From the NCBI RefSeq assembly GCF_018771565.1, contig NZ_CP076326.1:558001-622000 (forward strand): a stretch of DNA of 64,000 bases. Direction: 5' to 3'. The translations under genes and the position numbers were made by a program. The notes under the pieces were generated by a model that was not told where the DNA came from, did not search any database, and worked only from the letters and a program-made list of their open reading frames with translations. The stretch comes from Thermoflexus hugenholtzii (lineage in GTDB: Bacteria; Chloroflexota; Anaerolineae; Thermoflexales; Thermoflexaceae). Below are positions 44,865 to 56,746 of this stretch, one piece after another. The stretch's first letter is position 1. Each line of letters begins with the position of its first letter.

Positions 44865-45686
44865 TTAGCAGAAATAACACAAAACAGCGGCGCAGAACGC
44901 CGCAACTCCGGCCGCGCAAGCAGCGCAGCTAGCGGGGGTATAACAACAGCATACACTGCATAGGCCCAGTCCCTCGGCAATGCAAATCCATATTTCGGGC
45001 TGGTGGCAGCAAATCGCTTGGGAAGGCCTCGGGTGACCCGGAGGGCGGTTTTGGGGAGATCGTGATGCTTCCCCTTCGCCCTTGGGGAGGTCGGCTGTCA
45101 GCAGGATCCTTCCATCTGGATGATAAAGCCGCATGCGCCCTGTCATTGAGGCGCTCTCCTCCCACTCGATCTCTACCACATACAGGACTAGGATCTCCGT
45201 CCCGCGAACTGAGGCGGTCAGGAAGCGATGCGATGAACCCGATGGGAACAGCGGGGCGACCAGGGCGGAGCCCCTCTCAAAAGAAAAAGAATATAGCCAC
45301 ACCTCCTTCCAGTCGGGCTCAGCGTTCCAGGTCTCAAGGCGGAACTGTTTCTGAGCCTGTTGGAAGAGGGCGCTGTAGAGGGGTTCCCCCCGTTGCACCC
45401 GTCGGCGGGAGGGCGGCCGGGATTGGGAGGGGATGGGGGGTCCGGCTGTCCCAGAGCGAAGCGGAGCTCCCGGGCCTTGTAGCGTTAGAAGGCCAAGCAG
45501 AGCCCCTCCGGCCCGGCGCAGGAAATCGCGCCTTCCCCAATCCACGCCCAGCACCGGGCCTCCCATCCGGGCCACCGCCTGGGCCACCCGCAACGCCCGC
45601 ACCGGACCTAAGACCTGCACCAGGCGCGCCCGCAGGGAAAGGCCCGCAAAGATTCGCACCCACTCCCCCTCGATCTCGACGAGCAT
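44865..45686 (-). CDS. DCC-like protein lacking its N-terminus, with Cys-rich tail
   Basis: The frame is open from about 45750, just after a stop. It aligns with the DCC proteins at 55766 and 52436 from their residue 38 on (PEVQALLD, GWQWEPMLVEIEGE), so the CxxC part is lost. It keeps a textbook twin-Arg segment, WGRRDFLRRAGGALLGLLTL. The outer domain differs from the paralogues and ends in about 50 residues with some 15 Cys (CCHQPEIWICIAEG, CSVCCCYTPASCAACAAG). Such tails recall Cys-rich secreted peptides. First usable ATG is 45686. Confidence 0.65.
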   Translation of the reverse strand: MLVEIEGEWVRIFAGLSLRARLVQVLGPVRALRVAQAVARMGGPVLGVDWGRRDFLRRAGGALLGLLTLQGPGAPLRSGTAGPPIPSQSRPPSRRRVQRGEPLYSALFQQAQKQFRLETWNAEPDWKEVWLYSFSFERGSALVAPLFPSGSSHRFLTASVRGTEILVLYVVEIEWEESASMTGRMRLYHPDGRILLTADLPKGEGEASRSPQNRPPGHPRPSQAICCHQPEIWICIAEGLGLCSVCCCYTPASCAACAAGVAAFCAAVLCYFC

Positions 45687-45804
45687 CGGCTCCCACTGCC
45701 AGCCGGGGTGGGCCTGGTCCAGCAGGGCCTGGACCTCGGGCTTCTGCGGGTTGCGCTCCTCTCATCGCTCTCCATCCTCCGGAGGCGAGCCAGGTTCTCC
45801 GCGC

Positions 45805-47718
45805 TTATGGGGGCATCTGCCAGAGGCTTACCCGGCCATCCTCCAGGACTACGGCCAGCCATCGCCCGTCCGGACTAAAGGTGGCGACCGCGTTTGCCCC
45901 CCATCCGTTCAAACGGCCGCCGGGCTTCCCATCCCCCGGCAGATCTCGCCGGAGATCCCACCACATCCATTCCTCCCCGATCTGGATGACCAACCATCGT
46001 CCATCGGGAGAGGTGATCAGTGCTCCGGGCCATCCAGTCAGTGGAAACTCTTCCCGAAGCATGCATCCCGGCACCTCCACCCACCGGCCGCGCCACTGGG
46101 TTTTCATCAACTCCGGTGTGTTTTCCGGCTTCGTGGCTACGCCCAGGGCCAGCAATCGCTGATTATCCGGATGAAAAGCCAGTCGCATCACGTCCACCTG
46201 CCCGAGCCGATCCTGGGCTCCCCACCCCAGATCCGTCGCGCAGACCAGCCGTCCACTGGCCGTTTCCCATATCCGCAAAGGAGTCTCATCCATCGCCGGG
46301 CCCGGGCCGTGCTGGGAACTGCCGGCGGCCACCCATCGTCCGTCCGGGGAAAAGGTCAGCGCCTGGATCGGGTTGGGTCCTCCTTGCGCCCACCACTGCC
46401 AGCGCTCCCTGTCCACTTCCCCCACCCATATGGTCCCATCCTCGGTCCCCACGGCCCACCGCGAACGATCCGGAGCCACTGCCAGACTGTAGACTCCCCG
46501 TGGACCCGGGGGAACTTTCCACGACCGGAGCGTCCGGAGATCCCAAACCCACCGCTCGCCGGCCTGTTCCCCCCTTAAGAGCTCCCTATCTGGCCAAGCC
46601 GGCTGCCACTGTCCTTCCCCCAAGGGGATACGGGTCTGCTCCTGTCCCCCTGGCACCTCCAGCACCCGGATCGTGCCATCGCGCCCCAGATAGGCCAGCG
46701 TCTCTCCGGTGGCGCTGAAGGCCAGTCCGGGCGCCGCCGCTCCCGTCTCGAGCAGCTGCCGCCGATCCCCGGTCGCCGTTTCCATCCACACCGTCTCGCC
46801 TTCCTGCCAGAGCCGCGCGGTTCCCCCAGGCCGGGCAGCCTGCCACACCGTGAGGGGCTCCTGTCGGTCTCCCAGGCGGCGCCCGGTCGCTACCTCCCAC
46901 TCCCCGTGCTGGGAGCGCAGCACCCGTCCCCCGTCCGCGAAGGCCAGGGCCCCGGGGTTCCTCTCGGCCAACCGCTGAACCACCTCACCCGTCCTCAGAT
47001 CCCAGATCGTGATGCCCTCCGCGTCGCTTCCCGCTGCCCACCGGCCATCGGGCGACACCGCCAGTGCCTTCACATCCCCCGTTGTGTTCAGGGCCCCAAT
47101 CTGCTGGCCGGTTTCCACCGAGAGCCGGAGCACAACGCCTGCATCCACCAGCACCTCCTGTCCATCCGGCGTGAACGCGATGGCCTCCCCAGCGCGTGCA
47201 TCCTCAAAATCCGGAAGGGGGAAGGTCCCATGCAGGGTGGGCGTCGGCTCCAAACGCCAGAGGAACCCATGAACGTCGGTCACGGCGGCGAGGAATCGCC
47301 CGTCTGGAGAGAAAGCCAGGTCGTTCACCGGTTCCGGTTCCCGCAACAGCACGTGCTGCGGTTGCTCGTAGGGAGGGTCGTAGAGGGCCAGGGAGGGACA
47401 ACCCCGAAGGCAGGCGATGGCCAGGGTGACGGCGTGGGGCCGTGCGGCCAGGTGGGCGATCCATCCCCGGGATACCCATTTCCCCTGAGGTGGTTCGGAG
47501 GTCAAGTCCATAAGCAGGAGGCCGGTGGTAAGCCCCACCGCCAGGGCCGGGGGCTCCTCCAGCAAGGCCAGCCCGGTGAGGCTTCCCATGCCGCGCGTCC
47601 ACACCTGCACCGGCTCGGGTAGCGTCCGGGGGGTCATTTCCCCTTTGACGCACGCGCCCATCGCCAGTGCAATGCCGATCCAGAAGTAACTGAGCCACCA
47701 CGGTTTCTCGCGCATCAT
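45805..47718 (-). CDS. WD40-type beta-propeller lipoprotein
   Basis: 637 residues. Signal with lipobox (IGIALAMGAC, Cys near residue 21), then many WD40/TolB-like blades with the recurring pattern FSPDGRWxAAG and IWDLRTGE (for example LAVSPDGRWAAGSD, LTFSPDGRWVAAGS). Fourteen or so blade repeats suggest two propellers. Propellers are protein-binding platforms; no catalytic residues are seen. The start at 47718 (MMREK) is chosen for the signal, though the site GGTGGG is weak. The frame continues upstream through relic sequence. Confidence 0.8.
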   Translation of the reverse strand: MMREKPWWLSYFWIGIALAMGACVKGEMTPRTLPEPVQVWTRGMGSLTGLALLEEPPALAVGLTTGLLLMDLTSEPPQGKWVSRGWIAHLAARPHAVTLAIACLRGCPSLALYDPPYEQPQHVLLREPEPVNDLAFSPDGRFLAAVTDVHGFLWRLEPTPTLHGTFPLPDFEDARAGEAIAFTPDGQEVLVDAGVVLRLSVETGQQIGALNTTGDVKALAVSPDGRWAAGSDAEGITIWDLRTGEVVQRLAERNPGALAFADGGRVLRSQHGEWEVATGRRLGDRQEPLTVWQAARPGGTARLWQEGETVWMETATGDRRQLLETGAAAPGLAFSATGETLAYLGRDGTIRVLEVPGGQEQTRIPLGEGQWQPAWPDRELLRGEQAGERWVWDLRTLRSWKVPPGPRGVYSLAVAPDRSRWAVGTEDGTIWVGEVDRERWQWWAQGGPNPIQALTFSPDGRWVAAGSSQHGPGPAMDETPLRIWETASGRLVCATDLGWGAQDRLGQVDVMRLAFHPDNQRLLALGVATKPENTPELMKTQWRGRWVEVPGCMLREEFPLTGWPGALITSPDGRWLVIQIGEEWMWWDLRRDLPGDGKPGGRLNGWGANAVATFSPDGRWLAVVLEDGRVSLWQMPP

Positions 47719-48399
47719 CGGACCCACCAGTAAAGCACCGTTGATCCTCCGCTTACGGAGGCCTCGCATGCGAAATAGGCCCGATAAGCCTGCCCTCCAT
47801 CTCCAAGCATCCTGCATCGTGAAGGAGCCATCGTTCGCTCCTCGCTTCCCCCTCCGCTCGCGGATCGGCTTTCGGTTTTCATGCGATCCAGCCAGCGGAA
47901 GCCGTGATCCTCCAAAAAGGAGGACCAATTCGGGTGGTGTCCTCCAAAAGGGAGGACACCGCGCGGCCATCGGGGTCCTCTGTCCCGGGCGGCCAGGGGG
48001 TCTCCCCGAAGCCCGGCGGCGATGGCGGGGTCCTCCAGCCCGCCGGCCCGCAGGGCCTGTCGGCCGGGGAGTCCCAGACGGGCGAACAGCCGTTGGAGGT
48101 GGGCGCGCCGCGGGCTCCGGCGGATCGACAGGGCCTGGGCGATCTCTTCGTCTAAGCTGGGCCGGGCTGCCCGAAGCCGCCGGAGGCCGTTGAAGAAGCC
48201 GCGGACTCGGATCCTCCGGGGCCACGCGCAGCGCCTCCGCCCACGGCCCCGCATCCCCGCCACCCCACCCGAGCGCCCCCGCTCTCCGGACCGCACCGAT
48301 GCGGCACAGGGTGGACCGTGCGGCTGCAGCGCGGGCCTCCTCGACCGCAGGGCGCATCCATCTCCTGCGCCCGCCCGGTTCCGGATCCCGGGCCCCGCC
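47719..48399 (-). other. Decayed region: DCC N-terminus scar and hairpins
   Basis: 681 bases without an intact gene. Near 47806-47842 one frame reads SERWLLHDAGC, the same as the N-terminus of the DCC proteins (WLLYDAGC), then stops. Two adjacent perfect hairpins follow: TCCTCC/GGAGGA at 47908-47924, and GTGTCCTCC/GGAGGACAC at 47937-47959. The rest contains the LuxR relic listed separately. Confidence 0.6.
47985..48370 (-). pseudogene. LuxR-type regulator relic
   Basis: A frame reading RRAHLQRLFARLGLPGRQAL then RAGGLEDPAIAAGLRGDPL parallels the end of the intact regulator at 56851 (VRTHLARALARLGRVDRVDL, AQGGLLDPRCAALLEEDPL). Further upstream another frame reads STLCRIGAVRRAGALGWGGG against its SLWTPGAVRQAQRWWASWGD. 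At least one frameshift separates the parts and the receiver domain is gone. It lies just ahead of the DCC scar, as the intact gene lies ahead of an intact DCC gene. Confidence 0.55.
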
Positions 48400-49830
48400 T
48401 TAGGGTCCGCCGGAAAGGCGTAGCAACGCCTCCCGTTCGGCCAGATACAGGAAATCGGCCGGCCGGCCCTGCGGCAACGGCGGCGGCGTGGCGACCCACT
48501 CCAGGGCCTCCGAGACCCAGGCCAGCCACCGCCCATCGGCCGAGAGGACCGGGTTGTAGCTCGGCCCGGCCAGCCGACCGGCCTCGCCCCGGCTCAGGAT
48601 CGTCATCCGACCCGTCGCCCGATCCCACACCGCCAGCCACAGGTCGCAGGGCCGCCCCCACACCGGCCGGGCGGGACACTCCGTCGCGCCCACCGACCCC
48701 AGGTTGCGCGCCCGGGTGGCGAAGACCACCCAGCGGCCATCCCCCGAGATCGCCGGACCCTCGGCCGCCCCATCCCCCGGCTCCCCCGCCGCGTTCGCAT
48801 CCACCAGCTCCATCTGCCCCGTCTCCCGGTCATACAGGTAGATGTGGCGGCAGAAAGGCAACGGCTCCGCCCCGGGCCAGGGCGCGCAGGGCTTCAGCGG
48901 GCGATCCACCAGCCGGGCCGCGGCGGCGAAGGCCAGGAAGCGGCCGTCGGCCGAGAGGGCGATGCCCCCTTCCCACGCCCCATCGGTGCCGGGAACCAGC
49001 TGCAGGCCACTGGGCTGGGGAGGATCCTCGGGCCGAACCGGCCGGCTGACCCAGACGGTCTTCCCCGTCTCCCGGTCGTAGAGGAAGACATCGAACTGGC
49101 CGTTGCGGTCCTCCGGGACCACGCCGTCGTCGTTCGTGACGAAGGCCAGAAAGCGGCCGTCGGCAGAAAGGGCCACGAGGGCGCCGCCGGAGGCGGCGGG
49201 GGATTCGGTGGGCGGATGAACCCGATGGAGCCGCTGGCTGTAGCGGTCATAGAGATACACCCCGGGGCCGGGGTTACAGGCGCTGTCGTTGGCCCAGGCG
49301 ATCCAGCGGCCGTCGGCGGAGAGGGCAGGGCCGGCGTGGCCGGCCAGCCCCATACGGGAGACGCCCCCAGGGAGCCATTCCAGCCCGCCGGTGAGGCGGT
49401 CATAGACGGCCAGGGGGTAGCAATCGGGATCGGCAGCGGAGGCGGGGAGCGGGGAACGGGCGAAAAAGGCCAGGAAGCGGCCGTCGGCCGAGAGAGCCGG
49501 GCCGAGGCCGGCGGCTGGCTGCCCCTCCGGGCCCACGCGTAGGGGCTCAAAGACCCCCCGCCCGGCGTCCCAGAGAAAGAGGGACTCCCGGTCCATCCCC
49601 ACCCCCCAGCGGCCGTCGGCGGACAGACGGAGCCGATCTCCGAGGCCGAGCAGCCGGATGAGCTCGGGAGCGGCCGTGGGAGCCGGCGTTGCAGTGGGGA
49701 GCTGTGTCGGGGAGGGCGAAGCCCCGGGCGCGGAGGTCGCGGGCCGATCCGGGGATGCCCCTATGCATCCTCCCAGCAACCCCAAAAAGCTCAGCATCAG
49801 GAGAACTTGGAGAAGAGGTGTTTTCATCAT
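48400..49830 (-). CDS. TolB-like beta-propeller lipoprotein
   Basis: 476 residues. Lipobox LGGC (Cys near residue 22), a Pro/Ala/Thr linker to about 55, then seven or eight blades, each with LSADGRFLAF or a variant, and VYLYDRYSQR/IYLYDRETGQ strands. The start at 49830 is chosen for the lipoprotein signal. An in-frame ATG at 49893 with a better site (GGGGGAAGCG) would add the DCC-like N-terminus MSERWLPYDAGP. No catalytic residues visible. Confidence 0.8.
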   Translation of the reverse strand: MMKTPLLQVLLMLSFLGLLGGCIGASPDRPATSAPGASPSPTQLPTATPAPTAAPELIRLLGLGDRLRLSADGRWGVGMDRESLFLWDAGRGVFEPLRVGPEGQPAAGLGPALSADGRFLAFFARSPLPASAADPDCYPLAVYDRLTGGLEWLPGGVSRMGLAGHAGPALSADGRWIAWANDSACNPGPGVYLYDRYSQRLHRVHPPTESPAASGGALVALSADGRFLAFVTNDDGVVPEDRNGQFDVFLYDRETGKTVWVSRPVRPEDPPQPSGLQLVPGTDGAWEGGIALSADGRFLAFAAAARLVDRPLKPCAPWPGAEPLPFCRHIYLYDRETGQMELVDANAAGEPGDGAAEGPAISGDGRWVVFATRARNLGSVGATECPARPVWGRPCDLWLAVWDRATGRMTILSRGEAGRLAGPSYNPVLSADGRWLAWVSEALEWVATPPPLPQGRPADFLYLAEREALLRLSGGP

Positions 49831-49859
49831 GGCTGTTCCCTTAGGAGAATTGCCTTCAG

Positions 49860-49893
49860 GCCCCGCATCGTAAGGGAGCCATCGTTCGCTCAT
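49860..49893 (-). pseudogene. DCC-protein N-terminal scar
   Basis: ATG at 49893 begins MSERWLPYDAGP, matching MGTRWLLYDAG of the intact DCC protein at 56746; the CxxC and the rest are missing. It is in frame with the propeller lipoprotein gene. The 49894-50031 stretch shows no gene. Confidence 0.6.
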
Positions 49894-50031
49894 CGCTTCC
49901 CCCCGCTTGCGGTGCGGAATCGGCACCGGCCGGGGAGGGGCGGGAGCGGTTCCTCGGCCCCTCCCGCACGCCCCCAGCGTCAGGGCCATTGTCCCACATC
50001 CATCCCCATCGCTTCCACCATCCCACCCGCC

Positions 50032-51750
50032 TTATGGAACCCCCCTTCGAGCTCCCGGGTCTGGATCCCGTCCCCGAGCGACCAACCGCACGGGCGATGC
50101 AGATCCCAGCTGGAGGGAAAGGTCTCTCGACTGATCGTCATCGGCGGCCGGATCGCCGGATTCGTTTGTTCCGGGATGTGAAGCAGGCGATGGCGGGGGG
50201 ATCCATTCAATCAACCCCCACTGACACCGTCCGTCCGAACGAGGGGAGATCGCCTGGGCGCCGATCCACACCCGTTTCAGCAGGCGCCCTTGGATTTCAG
50301 GAAGCAACGCATATATGCCTTGGTAGAAGGGGAAGAGATCCAGGGTCGCCTGGGGGACTCCCTCCAGGTTCAGCCACACCGCCTGTTCCCCATGCTCCCC
50401 CCTTACGGCCAACACGCCGTCTGGAACAGGAACGAGGGGCGGTCGCGCGCCGGCGAGGGGAATTCCAAGGGATCCCGGAGCTGCGGGCAGGCGCAACACA
50501 CGCAGCTCACCGGTTTGCAGATCTTTCAGGAAGACGGCAGGGGGATCGACCCCCCAGGTCATTATGGAGACCCCTTCCAGAAGCCGGCCGGCTTTGAGAT
50601 GGGCTCCCGGGGCAAGGTAGAGGACTCGGGCGGGATCTTCGGGCCCTTTGAGGTGCTGGCCTACGCGCACCATGGCGATCGCCAGCCATTGTCCATCCGG
50701 GGAAAGGGCGTAGTCGAAGAAGTTCCAATCTGAAAGCCCCAGGTCGGCGGGCCTCACCACCCGGCCGGCGTGGAGGTCCAGAAGGAAGCCCTTCCCGAAT
50801 GCATCGTTGGGCACCCCGATGAGCCAGTGAGGGCCGTTTCCGATCTCCCTGGTCGGTGGGATGTTCGGGTCGTCTGATCCAAGGATGTGAAGCGGCAGAT
50901 CGATCCGGCGGGCTGGCGCGCCCATGCGGGCGGGGACTTGCCAGATCCGGATCCGCGGCAGCCCATCCGGGGTTTCCACCTCTTGCAGCGCCAACCCGTA
51001 AGCGCTATCCCGGGCCATGATCACCCCCCACAGTCCCCGCTCACTCTCCAGGACCTTCTCCCAGGTCCCGGTGTTCAGATCTACTCGCCACACCGTCCCG
51101 TTTGGGGAGGAGGCGAGGGCCACTGCGTCCCGGGCCAGGAGAAGGTCACGAATCGGTTCCGGCGGCTCCAGAACGCGGGAGCGGTGATCCTCTTCCAGGA
51201 TCAGGCGAATGAGGCCGACATGGGTGCGGGTGGCCCTGAGCCGTCGGCCATCCGAAAGGGTCCAGCAGCAGACTTCCTCCACGGTCTCTTTCTCACGGAT
51301 GGCGCTCCCGTCCTGGATGAGCCAGTGGTGGGTATTGCCTTCCGTATCCAGTTCTGCGGAGGCCAGGAAACCTGCATTCTGAAGTGGGGGCTCCAGGGGC
51401 CAGCGCCACACCACCGTAAGGCGGCGGCCGTCCCGGGAGATCGACTCCGGGAAGATGGGATACGGAGAACCCGGGAGGTGGCGCAGGCGTCGGTCGGGTC
51501 GGGCCAGCTCCTCCCAGCGGAGATCCCGAAGGTCCAGGAGCGGCGAGGGCGTCTCCCCGCTCGAAATATCCGGTGGAGGAAGGCAGGGGGAAGTGGGGAG
51601 TGTGGGCGGAGGAGGGGTAGAGAGGGGTGAACCGAACCCCTTCTCCAACGTGGGCCGGGGTCCAGGAGCCCGCGGCATCCTACAGCTCAGCAGGCTTAGC
51701 ACCATCAGCATCATGATCGCAATCCGACCCGGCTTAGACAGAACACACAT
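50032..51750 (-). CDS. Propeller-like lipoprotein of the accessory cassette (copy A)
   Basis: 572 residues. Lipobox LSLLSC (Cys near residue 20), a Pro/Thr-rich linker to about 65, then a beta-rich domain with blade-like ALSPDGQWLAIAM, PNGTVWRVDLNTGTWEKVLE and GPHWLIGVPNDAFGKGFLLD. It is paralogous to the protein at 53639 (shared ARMGAPA, LLDLxxGRVxRPxDLGL and LYLxPxxxLxAG), with about 35 extra residues at the end from read-through past the shared stop point. AAGGAG lies upstream of ATG 51750, 14 bases after the Cys-rich gene. Confidence 0.78.
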   Translation of the reverse strand: MCVLSKPGRIAIMMLMVLSLLSCRMPRAPGPRPTLEKGFGSPLSTPPPPTLPTSPCLPPPDISSGETPSPLLDLRDLRWEELARPDRRLRHLPGSPYPIFPESISRDGRRLTVVWRWPLEPPLQNAGFLASAELDTEGNTHHWLIQDGSAIREKETVEEVCCWTLSDGRRLRATRTHVGLIRLILEEDHRSRVLEPPEPIRDLLLARDAVALASSPNGTVWRVDLNTGTWEKVLESERGLWGVIMARDSAYGLALQEVETPDGLPRIRIWQVPARMGAPARRIDLPLHILGSDDPNIPPTREIGNGPHWLIGVPNDAFGKGFLLDLHAGRVVRPADLGLSDWNFFDYALSPDGQWLAIAMVRVGQHLKGPEDPARVLYLAPGAHLKAGRLLEGVSIMTWGVDPPAVFLKDLQTGELRVLRLPAAPGSLGIPLAGARPPLVPVPDGVLAVRGEHGEQAVWLNLEGVPQATLDLFPFYQGIYALLPEIQGRLLKRVWIGAQAISPRSDGRCQWGLIEWIPPPSPASHPGTNESGDPAADDDQSRDLSLQLGSASPVRLVARGRDPDPGARRGVP

Positions 51751-51764
51751 CACATTCTCCTTGT

Positions 51765-52418
51765 TTAACAAGTATAACCAGGATTGTAATAGAAGCGATA
51801 GATGGCCGTGGTCCCTTGAGCGACATCAACACAGCAACAAGGAGCTACTGTCTCGCCTAAGTATCTTTCAAGATGAACATGGGATCCACTATAACAAACT
51901 GTGCACCTGCAATCACGATTTGAGCAAGAGCATGTTGGACAATTGCATTGATCGGATGGGTTTGGCCATGATTTGCAGAGATAGCATCCTCCAACAATAT
52001 CGCCAAGTTTATATGAACGGGAAGTTAAATCAATCCACTGTCCGTTGCTTACAGTAGGATTAGCGACATGACCATACATCACTGAACCAACATAACAATA
52101 CTTTCCGTTATCGTATATATACAAATCAACTGTGATTGAACGAGCGTAGCTATTGTTCGGTTCTTTACAGCAACACAGATATTCGACCCATGTTTGCACG
52201 CGACGAACCGTTGGATAATTGACATATAGACAAATCGATCCGGGTGTTGGGCATGTTGATCCAGTTCCTGCAATGTCAATTGGTGAAGACCAATTCTTGC
52301 AACGACCATGAGCGTTTAAACATCCGCTACAATTCCCGTAGCAAGCTGGGCAATCACAATAATAATCCCGCCCGGTCACGATTCCCGATATCGGTGCATA
52401 AACATATGCATACGCCAT
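51765..52418 (-). CDS. Cys-rich LytM/M23-like protein (copy A)
   Basis: 217 residues with 25 Cys (11.5%). The N-terminus is MAYAYVYAPISGIVTGRD, followed by a Cys cluster, then SITVDLYIYDNGKYCYVGSV, MYGHVANPT, NGQWIDLT, KLGDIVGG and SGSHVHLER. The order APxSGxVT ... YGH ... LGDxxG ... HxHxE recalls M23/LytM zinc peptidases, but the first zinc His is not found (SPID in place of HxGxD). There is no signal peptide. Base composition is far more AT-rich than its neighbours. AAAGGAGG precedes the ATG. The copy at 55191 lacks the middle Cys insert. Confidence 0.75.
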   Translation of the reverse strand: MAYAYVYAPISGIVTGRDYYCDCPACYGNCSGCLNAHGRCKNWSSPIDIAGTGSTCPTPGSICLYVNYPTVRRVQTWVEYLCCCKEPNNSYARSITVDLYIYDNGKYCYVGSVMYGHVANPTVSNGQWIDLTSRSYKLGDIVGGCYLCKSWPNPSDQCNCPTCSCSNRDCRCTVCYSGSHVHLERYLGETVAPCCCVDVAQGTTAIYRFYYNPGYTC

Positions 52419-52435: not shown

Positions 52436-53419
52436 TTAAAATTTTGTTAATGAGGTTGTAATGATGGGCATCAAGGATCCCTCAGGATCCTGATAAGTCA
52501 CGAGGGTGTAAAGAACATCTTGTTCGATCCAATGCACCATATAGCCATCCACGGTCGGAAGCAGCACCCCAGGGGCCGGCGTGAAGAAAACCTTTGCCGG
52601 TGGGACTGGAATCTCTGGCTGCTCAGGATGCCGCACCGGCCACACTGGATAAGGACGAGGATAAATGGGACGCGCCCACAGGCTCCCTTCGGGTTCAGAG
52701 GCCCGCCCGAAGTCCAGTATCACGATGAACACTCGACCGCCTCCTCGGAACCGGATCACCTGCCCTTGTTGAAAGAGCAACTCTGTTGGCCGGTAGAGGG
52801 GGAAGGGGATCTGCGCTCGTGCCTCGGCCAGATCCTGCACCGGAAGGGTCTCCCCGCGCAGGGCCTCGGCTTCGGGGCTGCCATCGGTCTGGCATAGGAT
52901 GGGAGCGGGGGCACAGCTCACGAAGGAGGGCAGCGGGGCGCCTTCCGGAAGCAGCACGAACCTCTCCCAGAGCTCCCCCTCCCCTGGGCCGAGACGAGGA
53001 GGGGCCGAACCGGCGGTTCGAGGGGTATGGGTCCCTCCGGGGATCCGCCGCAGCAGCGCCAGCCCGGCCAGGGCCAGGCTCTGGCGCAGCAACCGCCGCC
53101 TCCCCCAATCCACGCCCAGCACCGGCCCGCCGTGCCGGGCCACGGCCTGGGCCACCCGCAACGCCCGCACTGGGCCTAAGACCTGCACTAGGCGCGCCCG
53201 CAGGGAAAGGCCCGCAAAGATTCGCACCCGCTCCCCCTTGATCTCAACGAGCATCGGCTCCCACCGCCAGCCGGGACGGGCGCGGTCCAGCAGGGCCCGG
53301 ACCTCGGGCTCCCACAAACTTCGCACCCCCAGCTGCCCGCCGCTCCGGGCTTTCACCTCCCGGGCCAGGGCCGCGCACACGGAACACCCGCTGTCAAAGG
53401 GAAGATACCGTTTTGGTAT
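52436..53419 (-). CDS. DCC-family thiol protein with internal twin-Arg segment (copy A), ATA start
   Basis: 327 residues, aligning end to end with copy B at 55766. The N-terminus PFDSGCSVCAALAREV carries the CxxC of DCC (DUF393) proteins. A twin-Arg hydrophobic segment follows near residue 107 (DWGRRRLLRQSLALAGLALL), then an outer domain of about 190 residues (SFVSCAPAPILCQTD, RPIYPRPYPVWPVRHP, TPAPGVLLPTVDGYM). Where copy B has ATG, this copy has ATA (53417-53419). The next start, GTG 53380, would remove the first active Cys. It may be poorly expressed. Confidence 0.75.
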   Translation of the reverse strand: MPKRYLPFDSGCSVCAALAREVKARSGGQLGVRSLWEPEVRALLDRARPGWRWEPMLVEIKGERVRIFAGLSLRARLVQVLGPVRALRVAQAVARHGGPVLGVDWGRRRLLRQSLALAGLALLRRIPGGTHTPRTAGSAPPRLGPGEGELWERFVLLPEGAPLPSFVSCAPAPILCQTDGSPEAEALRGETLPVQDLAEARAQIPFPLYRPTELLFQQGQVIRFRGGGRVFIVILDFGRASEPEGSLWARPIYPRPYPVWPVRHPEQPEIPVPPAKVFFTPAPGVLLPTVDGYMVHWIEQDVLYTLVTYQDPEGSLMPIITTSLTKF

Positions 53420-53638: not shown

Positions 53639-55177
53639 TCAGGGGCCTGAGGCCCATTCGACCAGGGCATAGCGGCACGTTTCATCCGGCCCGGGCGTTT
53701 TCAGAACGGCCCCCAGATAGACCCGATTGCCCTGACCCCGGATCCATTCGATGCGGGCGTAGAAAGGAGACAGATCCAGCCGCTCCCGGATTTGCCCCTC
53801 CGGCGTCAGCTGAAGGAGGCGGGCCGGCGTGCCGCGTTCCACCCCGAGCCATACGCCTCGTGCGCTCCCCAGGGGGAGCCCCACTCCCTTCAGGGGCACC
53901 TCGGTGATCCGCCCTCCTCGCTCCAGGCGCATAGCCCGCAGCGTCTCGGCACCCGCTTCTCGAAGGACAATACCGGCCGGATCTTCCAGCCAGGCAACGA
54001 ACAGGGCGCCGGGCTGCTGGATCCCGGCTCGGAGATCCGTCACCGGCGTCAGATAAAGGATTTGGGTCGGATCCTCCGGTCCCTGAGGGGTGTGTCCCGC
54101 GGGCAGCAGCGCGATGGCCACCCATTCCCCGGAAGGGTGCACAAAATATTTCCAGAATCGGAGCGACTGGGGAAGTCCCAAATCGGTCGGACGAATCACG
54201 CGACCGGTTCGGAGATCCAGCAGAAAGCCCTCTCCCAGCTCCTCATTGGGCATGAAAACATACCAGTATGGGCCATCTCCTAACGCCTGGGTCTGGGTTT
54301 CTTCGGGGCTTCCCTCCCGACCGACCCAACGGAGTTTCAGCTCGGGAAGGGGCTCTGCAGGGGCGCCTATCCGCGCTGGGATCCGCCAGACTCGCACGAT
54401 CCCGGGTTCCTCTGGCTGCACAGCCAGGCCGTAGGTTCCGTTGGGGGCCAGCGTAAAGGCATTGCCCAGTTTGCCGGTTTGAGGGGGACGGGGGCTGATC
54501 ACGCGTTCCCAGCGTCCAGAGCGGATCTCCATGCGCCACAGTTCCCCTTCTCCATCCCGCGCGAACAGGATCCCGTTGGCTGCCCTCCATACCCATGTGA
54601 TCTCTGTGGGGGGGTTCAAGGATTGGGCCTGGGGCGGCTCGCCGAGGAAGAGGGACTTTCCGTATCCCCACACCGGCCGCCCATCGGGTAGCCAGGTGTA
54701 GAGGATGCGCTCATCAGGCGGCCGGACCAGCCAGCGATGCTGGGATCCCTCCCGATCGATCAAGGCCTCCGCGATCGCCCCGAACATCTGAGGATGGAGT
54801 TCCAGGCGCACCTTCAACCAGCGGCCATCCGGGGAGCTTTCTTCCAGAATGGGAGGGAAAGGGAATCCGGCCAGCTGGCGGATCTGCGTCCCTGGGAGGG
54901 GAAGTTCTTCCCAGGACCACCCGGCCAGATCCGGCAAGTAAGCGGCTTCCGGGGTTTCCAGGTTTGGCTCCAGACGCCGGCAGGCGGTCGCCGTTGAAGT
55001 TTTCGGGATCGTGGGGGAAGGGATCAGCGACGCGGTTGGGATGGATGGCGAAGGAACAGGGGGGTGTGCCTCCCTGCCAGAGGGCGCCGGAGTTCCGAGA
55101 GGTCCCCCACATCCCAGTGCCATTCCGAGCCAGGCGATCCACAATGCCCGAGCCAGCTTTCGGAGGATCCTGTTCAT
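53639..55177 (-). CDS. Propeller-like lipoprotein of the accessory cassette (copy B)
   Basis: 512 residues. Signal with lipobox GMALGC (Cys near residue 23), Pro/Ser/Thr linker to about 70, then a beta-rich domain with ESSPDGRWLKVRL, LAPNGTYGLAVQ, YWYVFMPNEELGEGFLLDL and VHPSGEWVAIALL. It ends in CRYALVEW, as does copy A (CQWGLIEW). AAGGAGGAGG lies five bases before ATG 55177, 13 bases after the Cys-rich gene. Structure suggests a surface-exposed protein-binding platform. Confidence 0.8.
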   Translation of the reverse strand: MNRILRKLARALWIAWLGMALGCGGPLGTPAPSGREAHPPVPSPSIPTASLIPSPTIPKTSTATACRRLEPNLETPEAAYLPDLAGWSWEELPLPGTQIRQLAGFPFPPILEESSPDGRWLKVRLELHPQMFGAIAEALIDREGSQHRWLVRPPDERILYTWLPDGRPVWGYGKSLFLGEPPQAQSLNPPTEITWVWRAANGILFARDGEGELWRMEIRSGRWERVISPRPPQTGKLGNAFTLAPNGTYGLAVQPEEPGIVRVWRIPARIGAPAEPLPELKLRWVGREGSPEETQTQALGDGPYWYVFMPNEELGEGFLLDLRTGRVIRPTDLGLPQSLRFWKYFVHPSGEWVAIALLPAGHTPQGPEDPTQILYLTPVTDLRAGIQQPGALFVAWLEDPAGIVLREAGAETLRAMRLERGGRITEVPLKGVGLPLGSARGVWLGVERGTPARLLQLTPEGQIRERLDLSPFYARIEWIRGQGNRVYLGAVLKTPGPDETCRYALVEWASGP

Positions 55178-55190
55178 CGTTGCCTCCTCC

Positions 55191-55748
55191 TTAGCAAGCA
55201 GATCCAGCGTTGTAGTAAAAGCGGTAAATCGCGGTGGTGCCTGCGGTCACGCTCGCACAGCAACACGGCGCCACGGTTTCTCCCAGGTTTCGCTCAAGAT
55301 GCACGTGAGCTCCAGAATAACAAGTGAAAGTGCACGTATATGTGCCTCCTATTACGTCTCCTAATTTGAGGGAACTTGAGGTCAAATCGATCCATTGTCC
55401 ATTGTTTACGGTGGGGTTAGCGATATGGCCATACATTACCGAGCCCACATAACAATATTTCCCGTTATCATACACATACAAATCGACCGTGATAGAGCGC
55501 GCGTAGCTGTTGTTGGTCTCCTGGCAGCAACATTTGTATTCCACCCATGTTTGCACACGGCGAACAGTAGGATAGTTAACGTAGAGGTAGATGGATCCGG
55601 TTCCCGCGATATCGATGGGGGAAGCCCAATTCTTGCAGCGACCGTGGGCACTGCCACATCCGTTGCAGTTCCCGCAAGGGCAGCTGCAGTAGGAATCCCG
55701 CCCGGTCACTGTTCCGGAAATGGGCGCATAAACATACGCATACGCCAT
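55191..55748 (-). CDS. Cys-rich LytM/M23-like protein (copy B)
   Basis: 185 residues with 16 Cys. It shares MAYAYVYAPISGTVTGRD, SITVDLYVYDNGKYCYVGSV, NGQWIDLT, KLGDVIGG, GAHVHLERNLGETVAPCCC and IYRFYYNAG with copy A. The HVHLE motif and preceding YGH and LGDVIGG match the second half of M23 peptidases, while the first HxxxD zinc motif is not recognisable. No signal peptide. AAAGGAGG precedes ATG 55748, 18 bases after the DCC gene. More AT-rich than the surrounding genes. Confidence 0.77.
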   Translation of the reverse strand: MAYAYVYAPISGTVTGRDSYCSCPCGNCNGCGSAHGRCKNWASPIDIAGTGSIYLYVNYPTVRRVQTWVEYKCCCQETNNSYARSITVDLYVYDNGKYCYVGSVMYGHIANPTVNNGQWIDLTSSSLKLGDVIGGTYTCTFTCYSGAHVHLERNLGETVAPCCCASVTAGTTAIYRFYYNAGSAC

Positions 55749-55765: not shown

Positions 55766-56746
55766 TTAAAGTCGAGCTAGTGATTGTGCGATCTTGTAAA
55801 TCGAGGAGCCATCGGGATCGTGATGGGTGAGGAGGGTATACAGGATCGACCTTTCGATCCACTGGACCATATATCCATCGGCGGTGGGCAACAGCACGCC
55901 GGGAGCAGGAGTGAAGGAAATTTTCTCCGGCTGGATCAGGCGCTCGGGTTGGTCCGGATGCCGCACGGGCCAGATGGGGTAAGGTCGAGGATAGATCGGA
56001 CGGGCCCACAAGCGGACTTCCGGCTCTTTCAGGCCGAAATCCAGCATGACGGAGAACACAGATCCTCCCTGCTGGAAGCGAATGATCCGTCCCTGATGAA
56101 GGGGCATCCCGACCGGTTGATACAGAGGGAGGGAGCTTCGTGCCCGTGCCTCATTAAGATCCTGCACCGGAAGGACCTCCCCCCGCAGGGCCTCGGCCTC
56201 CGGGCGGCCATCGGTCTGACATAGAATGGGGGCGGGGGCACAGGTCACGAAGGGAGGAATCGGGGCACCTTCCGGCAGGAGCACGAAGCCCTCCCAGACC
56301 TCGCCCGCTCCGGTGGCGGGCGGGGTGGGCGGGGCCTTCTCAGGCCTGGCCATTGGGGAGCCTCCGGGGAGGCGACGGAGGAGGGCCAGGGCAGCCAGGG
56401 CGCCGCCCTGCTGCAGCAACCGCCGCCTTCCCCAATCCACACCGAGCACCGGGCCTCCCATCCGGGCCACCGCCTGGGCCAGCCGCAACGCCCGCACCGG
56501 GCCCAGAACCTGCACCAGGCGCGCCCGCATCGCCAGGCCCACCAAGACCCGCACCCGCTCCCCTTCGATCTCGACGAGCATCGGCTCCCACTGCCAGCCG
56601 GGACGGGCGCGGTCCAGCAGGGCCTGGACCTCAGGCTCCCGCAAACTCCGCACCCGCAGCCGCCCGCCGCTGAGGGCCTCCACCTCCCGGGCCAGGGCGG
56701 CGCATATGGAACACCCCGCATCGTAAAGCAGCCACCGCGTCCCCAT
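55766..56746 (-). CDS. DCC-family thiol protein with internal twin-Arg segment (copy B)
   Basis: 326 residues. Residues 1-95 are DCC/DUF393-like with CxxC at 12-15 (YDAGCSICAALAREV). A twin-Arg membrane segment lies at 105-125 (DWGRRRLLQQGGALAALALL), and an outer domain follows (FVTCAPAPILCQTDGRPEAE, RPIYPRPYPIWPVRHP, TPAPGVLLPTADGYM). DCC proteins are thioredoxin-like. An inside CxxC domain joined to an exported domain, next to a Cys-rich gene, suggests thiol handling of the partner. GGGAGG precedes the ATG. Confidence 0.82.
   Translation of the reverse strand: MGTRWLLYDAGCSICAALAREVEALSGGRLRVRSLREPEVQALLDRARPGWQWEPMLVEIEGERVRVLVGLAMRARLVQVLGPVRALRLAQAVARMGGPVLGVDWGRRRLLQQGGALAALALLRRLPGGSPMARPEKAPPTPPATGAGEVWEGFVLLPEGAPIPPFVTCAPAPILCQTDGRPEAEALRGEVLPVQDLNEARARSSLPLYQPVGMPLHQGRIIRFQQGGSVFSVMLDFGLKEPEVRLWARPIYPRPYPIWPVRHPDQPERLIQPEKISFTPAPGVLLPTADGYMVQWIERSILYTLLTHHDPDGSSIYKIAQSLARL

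Follow-up and report, generated by a model that had tools for sequence, protein, structure and literature searches.

A cysteine-rich M23/LytM-like protein and its predicted twin-arginine partner in Thermoflexus hugenholtzii

The stretch of DNA analysed here (64,000 nucleotides, hereafter the window) comes from Thermoflexus hugenholtzii, a hot-spring bacterium, and encodes a 185-residue protein with 16 cysteines. The protein carries, in order, the motifs APISGTVT, YGH, NGQ, KLGDVIGG and HVHLER. No signal peptide is present at its N-terminus (MAYAYVYAPISG). These properties had been listed in an initial annotation of the locus, and translation of the reading frame bore all of them out. Is the protein a hydrolase of the M23 type, a group that cleaves bacterial cell walls, and, if so, how would it leave the cell? 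With a rough probability of 0.55, we favour a disulfide-rich M23/LytM variant with a complete M23A-like site. It would fold in the cytoplasm, leave by Tat hitchhiking and cut peptide bonds outside.

The reading frame, its predicted fold and its relatives

55191..55748, minus strand (55748 to 55191): cysteine-rich protein with a predicted M23/LytM fold, 185 aa, no signal peptide (ORF, AlphaFold2, structure comparison)

The ATG lies 17 bases from the stop codon of the upstream gene and is preceded by a strong Shine-Dalgarno sequence, AAGGAGG. Comparison with a tandem paralogue gave a pN of 0.12 and a pS of 0.84, which indicates purifying selection. Eleven residues were invariant in 18/18 aligned rows (P9, D46, C74, G102, G107, H108, G130, C143, H148, H150 and I174), the relatives being 28-82% identical. 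The retention of these residues and the low pN/pS argue that the motif set is more than chance.

We modelled the protein with AlphaFold2 from an 11-row alignment (pLDDT 85.9, pTM 0.86). The best row of a Foldseek search against solved structures was an M23 hydrolase (probability 1.00, E 8.5e-3). All rows from rank 1 to 35 were M23/LytM or M23-bearing proteins, judged by title or by known identity. In a VIA comparison, the top 43 of the best 50 rows were M23/LytM proteins, with Z from 9.7 to 6.2. The LytM domain of EnvC scored Z 9.7 (rmsd 3.6, 114 residues aligned), DipM and StM23 9.5, and LasA 9.4. The highest-ranked row outside M23 had a Z of 6.2 over 61 aligned residues.

Sequence searches were less sensitive. 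The Pfam M23 model, PF01551, matched none of 18 family members. Single-sequence searches of Pfam, NCBIfam and the PDB with the window protein (P0001) returned nothing for M23, and the family profile had 0 matches among PDB sequences. We also aligned the family, using hhalign, with M23 domains from the Thermoflexus genome and its relatives. The score was 33.3, with a probability of only 52% and a P of 1.4e-4. In 300 shuffles of the family's columns, this score was never reached (best 23.7). In further controls, the reduced alignment scored 30.8 unshuffled and 11.9 when reversed. D46, H108, H148 and H150 were placed on the corresponding M23 residues. The kinship with M23/LytM proposed in the initial annotation thus held in the structure comparison and in the profile-profile alignment, and found no single-sequence Pfam or NCBIfam match. 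Taken together, the LytM/M23 fold and motif of the modelled protein are well supported.

The family is rare and patchy, and occurs in Chloroflexota and Acidobacteriota. Used alone as a query, P0001 found matches in 6/60 relatives, that in G026 being weak (E 2e-4, stops inside). A nine-member profile matched 12/298 genomes of the class and an 18-member profile 6/400 genomes drawn from the phylum. Among Acidobacteriota, 1/297 genomes matched, which was the starting genome itself. Scanning of genome contigs gave 10 loci, including those of Sulfidibacter corallicola and a Holophagae MAG. Our search found no relatives in viral contigs or plasmids. Interrupted or truncated M23-like copies were seen at L015, L007 (3428-3793), L021 (13954-14073), L024 (1546-1955) and L053 (7604-7744). 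The 3.3-Mb Thermoflexus genome has further, more distant copies at other sites. Only 4/18 inner branches of the family tree were starred and the Acidobacteriota members were left unplaced; given this poor resolution, we do not claim horizontal transfer. Copies of the M23-like gene seem to have been gained and to have decayed fast.

The upstream partner gene and a duplicated trio

The initial annotation mentioned neither a tandem duplication at this locus nor the Tat-type gene upstream. The relevant features are as follows.

55766..56746, minus strand: partner gene, 326 aa, with a DCC1-like CxxC head, an internal twin-arginine/hydrophobic segment and a C-terminal partner domain
56423..56428, minus strand: twin arginines R107-R108, proposed Tat signal (invariant in 11/11; N-terminal Tat signals in unfused homologues)
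55772..56305, minus strand: partner domain proper (profile match)
53639..55177, minus strand: predicted lipoprotein, beta-propeller-like, third of the trio (N-terminus of lipobox type by eye; Pfam gave no match)
52436..53413, minus strand: paralogue of the partner gene, with an in-frame CxxC head and no ATG (partner profile, sequence)
51765..52418, minus strand: M23-like tandem paralogue with 25 Cys in 217 aa (sequence comparison)
50032..51771, minus strand: another predicted lipoprotein, which follows the M23-like paralogue (ORF)
44865..45752, minus strand: DCC1-like/twin-arginine head on a different Cys-rich C-terminus with many CC/CCC clusters (sequence)

Partner gene, Cys-rich protein and predicted lipoprotein form a trio that is duplicated in tandem (56746-53639 and 53413-50032). 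In the paralogous partner (53380-53413, minus strand), ATA stands at the expected ATG, and a start at the first GTG would truncate the CxxC. Two propeller-repeat proteins adjoin the duplicated trio on the minus strand, one at 48400-49989 (PD40, 1.8e-18) and one at 45805-48357 (WD-like repeats by eye).

We searched for the partner at other loci with a profile. Members covering at least 150 of 174 positions were counted as full-length. A same-strand partner gene sits immediately upstream in 20/20 full-length members that have no signal peptide; 11 of these 20 adjacent partners built the profile, so that only 9 are independent. Left out of the count were decayed or truncated pieces at L007, L021 (13954), L024 (1546-1955), L029, L030 (contig edge) and L053. 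Partner sequence lies directly upstream of those at L007, L024 and L029 and not of those at L021, L030 and L053. One further locus (L120, G014:C67) was uncounted because the contig ends inside its partner gene. A partner-like match at L121 (G023:C178) was rejected as, by eye, an unrelated lipoprotein. Of the 21 full-length members, only L119/L090 carries a Sec-type signal itself; it has two cysteines, and the partner is absent from its 8.4-kb contig. The pattern E-x-Y/W-x-G-F-x-L-L ... PYP ... W-I-E-x-D-x-L-Y marks the partner domain and recurs upstream at every unrelated locus.

The twin-arginine (Tat-type) segment precedes the partner domain, and its RR pair was invariant in all 11 aligned partners. 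Unfused partners in two Acidobacteriota genomes, and at L028 of Chloroflexota, begin with an ordinary N-terminal twin-arginine signal. Of ten partners scanned, one from Holophagae passed the TIGR01409 cut-off (17.6 bits against 16.7) and the others fell below it; the window's own partner had no match to the Tat model. In this partner, a domain of some 105 residues precedes the Tat segment, an unusual arrangement. TatC is encoded in the Thermoflexus genome. A Tat-signal partner and a signal-less cargo in adjacent genes is the layout of Tat hitchhikers. From this layout we infer a complex and its export: lacking an export signal and preceded by a gene for a Tat-type partner, the 185-aa protein may exit already folded on that partner.

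Alternatively, the partner could be an inhibitor, immunity protein or chaperone. The twin arginines would then export the partner only, and the hydrolase would take another route or stay inside. In a fold search with the partner domain, the best Z was 7.5 and the rows, all weak matches, included RseB/MucB, PsbP, immunity and effector-chaperone proteins. The alternative draws on Tsi3 (immunity, Z 6.7), the effector chaperones SciW (6.1) and EagT6 (5.1), and RseB/MucB; however, such Z values are common for unrelated folds. Furthermore, the partner is missing for the one member that bears a signal peptide, and an inhibitor or chaperone role would be compatible with hitchhiking as well. We consider a partner exported by itself somewhat unlikely, and retain hitchhiking as the preferred route.

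In Thermoflexus, G077, G193 and G257 (Anaerolineae), the partners combine a DCC1-like CxxC N-terminal domain with the internal twin-arginine/hydrophobic segment. Scores against PF04134 (DCC1-like) reached 19.2 bits, and 17.2 for the window partner, all below the Pfam cut-off of 27.8. The head also occurs, without the partner domain, on other Cys-rich tails, both in Thermoflexus and in further genomes of the class (L113, L114, L116 and L117). The protein at 44865-45752 had no match in Pfam or NCBIfam. At L007 (373-1224 and 5604-6371, minus strand) the head is joined to a matrixin-type metalloprotease (PF00413, 7e-9, above the cut-off) and to a second, weak one. Two candidate passengers were dropped for want of support from Pfam and NCBIfam: a SleB-type cell-wall hydrolase (L111/L112) and halocin-C8-like proteins (window 44865 and L116). 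A literature search combining halocin C8, Tat and Chloroflexi gave nothing of use.

Tat carries folded proteins. For a Tat cargo, disulfide formation would hence need to take place in the cytoplasm, and a carrier headed by a CxxC DCC1-like domain is consistent with this. Tentatively, we propose that the modular head of Anaerolineae (DCC1-like domain plus internal Tat signal) oxidises a disulfide-rich cargo and then exports it folded. The cargo might be the carrier's own C-terminus (unrelated Cys-rich passengers or matrixin-type metalloproteases) or a separate, hitchhiking M23-type hydrolase. In two further genomes, a gene for a membrane protein of the MauE family (PF07291, 3.2e-24 and 7.9e-15) lies downstream of the M23-like gene, at L088 (2128-2754) and L089 (2665-3072). 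MauE has a role in maturing a disulfide-rich Tat substrate.

Candidate zinc site and conserved cysteines

55644..55646, minus strand: H35, candidate for the first zinc ligand, H(x)10D (upstream His in 22/22; ligation presumed)
55611..55613, minus strand: D46, putative zinc ligand matching the Asp in the HxGxD of M23 (conservation, hhalign)
55425..55427, minus strand: H108 (YGH), catalytic-type His (invariant 18/18; aligned with M23 YxH)
55299..55307, minus strand: H148-V-H150, HxH motif (invariant 18/18; aligned with M23 HxH)
55527..55529, minus strand: C74, an invariant Cys that may pair with C143 (codon 55320-55322) in a disulfide (conservation; pairing presumed)

The initial annotation held that the first zinc ligand is missing. 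P0001 does lack HxxxD, the residue 4 before D46 being Ala42. It has four histidines only (H35, H108, H148 and H150), and the conserved H35 lies 11 residues upstream of D46, giving H(x)10D. Among 22 members, one of them a half gene, a His precedes the Asp in 22 and the Asp itself is kept in 21, that of L027 being placed by eye; L088 has Asn instead. The His-to-Asp distance is 10-16 (n = 9-15) in 20/22 members, with n = 12 in six, and 21 and 33 in L013 and L015. At L010 (1234-1776) and L027 (8001-8534) a Cys stands exactly at the His position of HxxxD, and the upstream His is also present.

Published first motifs of M23, H(x)nD, vary in length, with H(x)12D in LasA and H(x)7D in gp13 among the examples given in PMC9662197. 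To judge from the aligned members, the family spacing matches the long H(x)nD of M23A (LasA) better than it does HxxxD. We found no clearly M23A-type sequence for a direct alignment of H35 in two Acidobacteriota genomes, so the spacing argument rests on papers. The residue order, H35-D46-C74-H108-C143-H148xH150, can be compared with that of BLP, where the residues given are His22, Asp36, His82, His121 and His123 (PMC8715609). We read the site as complete because all four His fit M23 positions, the upstream His is present in all 22 members and the order is that of BLP. Thus, the zinc-site residues are probably all present, and the claim of a missing first ligand is probably wrong. Because the H35 loop was modelled with low confidence (pLDDT 53 and 67 in its blocks), H35 is put forward as a presumptive ligand.

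Conceivably, the protein is an inert LytM-fold protein like the regulators of EnvC/NlpD type, its His residues being structural. The LytM domains of EnvC and DipM are among the best structural rows, and L088 is without the Asp. Conversely, the four His positions, and the Asp in 21/22, are retained in two phyla, against a background of drift at most other positions. Moreover, inactive M23-fold members are described in PMC9662197 as being without part of the catalytic set. We therefore regard inertness as unlikely, and the term non-catalytic, used in the initial annotation, as unsupported, the one Asp-to-Asn member excepted. An active hydrolase remains the preferred reading.

C74 and C143 are the only cysteines invariant in 18/18 rows. 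Their order relative to the active-site residues is that of one BLP disulfide, the two in BLP being 66-112 and 156-169 (PMC8715609). The M23A pattern is two disulfides, of which one links the region between Asp and the next His to the residues ahead of HxH. In the most divergent member, L090, the only two Cys fall in the same two intervals as C74 and C143. Complete signal-less members have 7-25 Cys. The description of the protein as disulfide-stapled is, by this conservation, plausible.

The 185-aa protein, having no signal peptide, might also be a thermophile's cytoplasmic Cys-rich protein that is unexported. Yet the family is also carried by Sulfidibacter, which we presume from its name to be coral-derived, and by other genomes; the pairing with a twin-arginine partner is 20/20, and one divergent member has a Sec signal. 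A cytoplasmic role is, in our judgement, quite improbable. The suggestion of a Cys as zinc ligand in place of the missing His, for which L010 and L027 offer a Cys exactly 4 before the Asp, is highly improbable, since P0001 has Ala42 at that site, C38, as the closest candidate, gives way to Val or a different residue in Acidobacteriota and several Anaerolineae, and the upstream His is always present.

Proposed mechanism and comparison with known systems

The preferred reading, an exported disulfide-rich hydrolase, can be set out in steps. The 185-aa protein would fold, and its cysteines would be oxidised, in the cytoplasm, perhaps assisted by the upstream gene's DCC1-like CxxC domain. It would bind the C-terminal domain of the partner, and the folded complex would cross the membrane via Tat on the twin-arginine segment. 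H35, D46 and H150 would coordinate the zinc, and the attacking water would be placed by H108 and H148. Once outside, the protein would cleave peptide bonds, with peptidoglycan as the likeliest substrate. The analysis shows a predicted fold, conserved residues, a missing signal peptide and constant adjacency to a twin-arginine partner; from these we infer zinc binding, disulfides, a complex with the partner, export, activity and substrate.

If this is true, the family would be an unrecognised branch of M23 hydrolases beneath the reach of current profiles, and a peptidase case of Tat hitchhiking. The locus would also be a genetic module that couples cytoplasmic disulfide formation to Tat export. 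That combination has so far been mainly engineered, as in CyDisCo with Tat (PMC6350376), and the module would be its natural counterpart. The cargo of a thermophile may be a very stable bacteriolytic enzyme. The Thermoflexus genome paper notes TatAC, and M23 is absent from its main text (PMC8129789). In the open-licence literature, we found nothing that combines M23 with twin-arginine hitchhiking, or a DCC thiol-disulfide oxidoreductase with twin-arginine export.

Among known systems, the family resembles M23A (BLP, pseudoalterin and LasA) in its predicted LytM fold, the order H-(x)n-D-C-H-C-HxH, the long H(x)nD and the disulfides, presumed here. Secretion of BLP depends on the host thiol-disulfide oxidoreductases BdbDC (PMC8715609). 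Unlike M23A, the family has no detectable sequence match, has 7-25 Cys in complete signal-less members and is paired with a twin-arginine partner. Furthermore, whereas M23A enzymes are Sec pre-pro-enzymes, 20/21 full-length family members have no signal or propeptide. With M23B (LytM, lysostaphin and StM23) it shares the fold and the YxH and HxH motifs; it differs in being without HxxxD, Cys-rich and below Pfam detection.

The partner resembles DCC1-like thiol-disulfide oxidoreductases (PF04134) in the YDxGCxxC motif at its N-terminus, but its head scores under the curated cut-off and is joined to a twin-arginine segment and to a range of passengers. The closest parallel for the layout is FAD-glucose dehydrogenase gamma/alpha, where a small subunit with a Tat signal and a signal-less catalytic subunit are thought to be co-exported (PMC6719666). 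Here, the cargo of the putative complex has a predicted peptidase fold and is not a flavoenzyme, and Anaerolineae partners place a DCC1-like domain ahead of the Tat segment.
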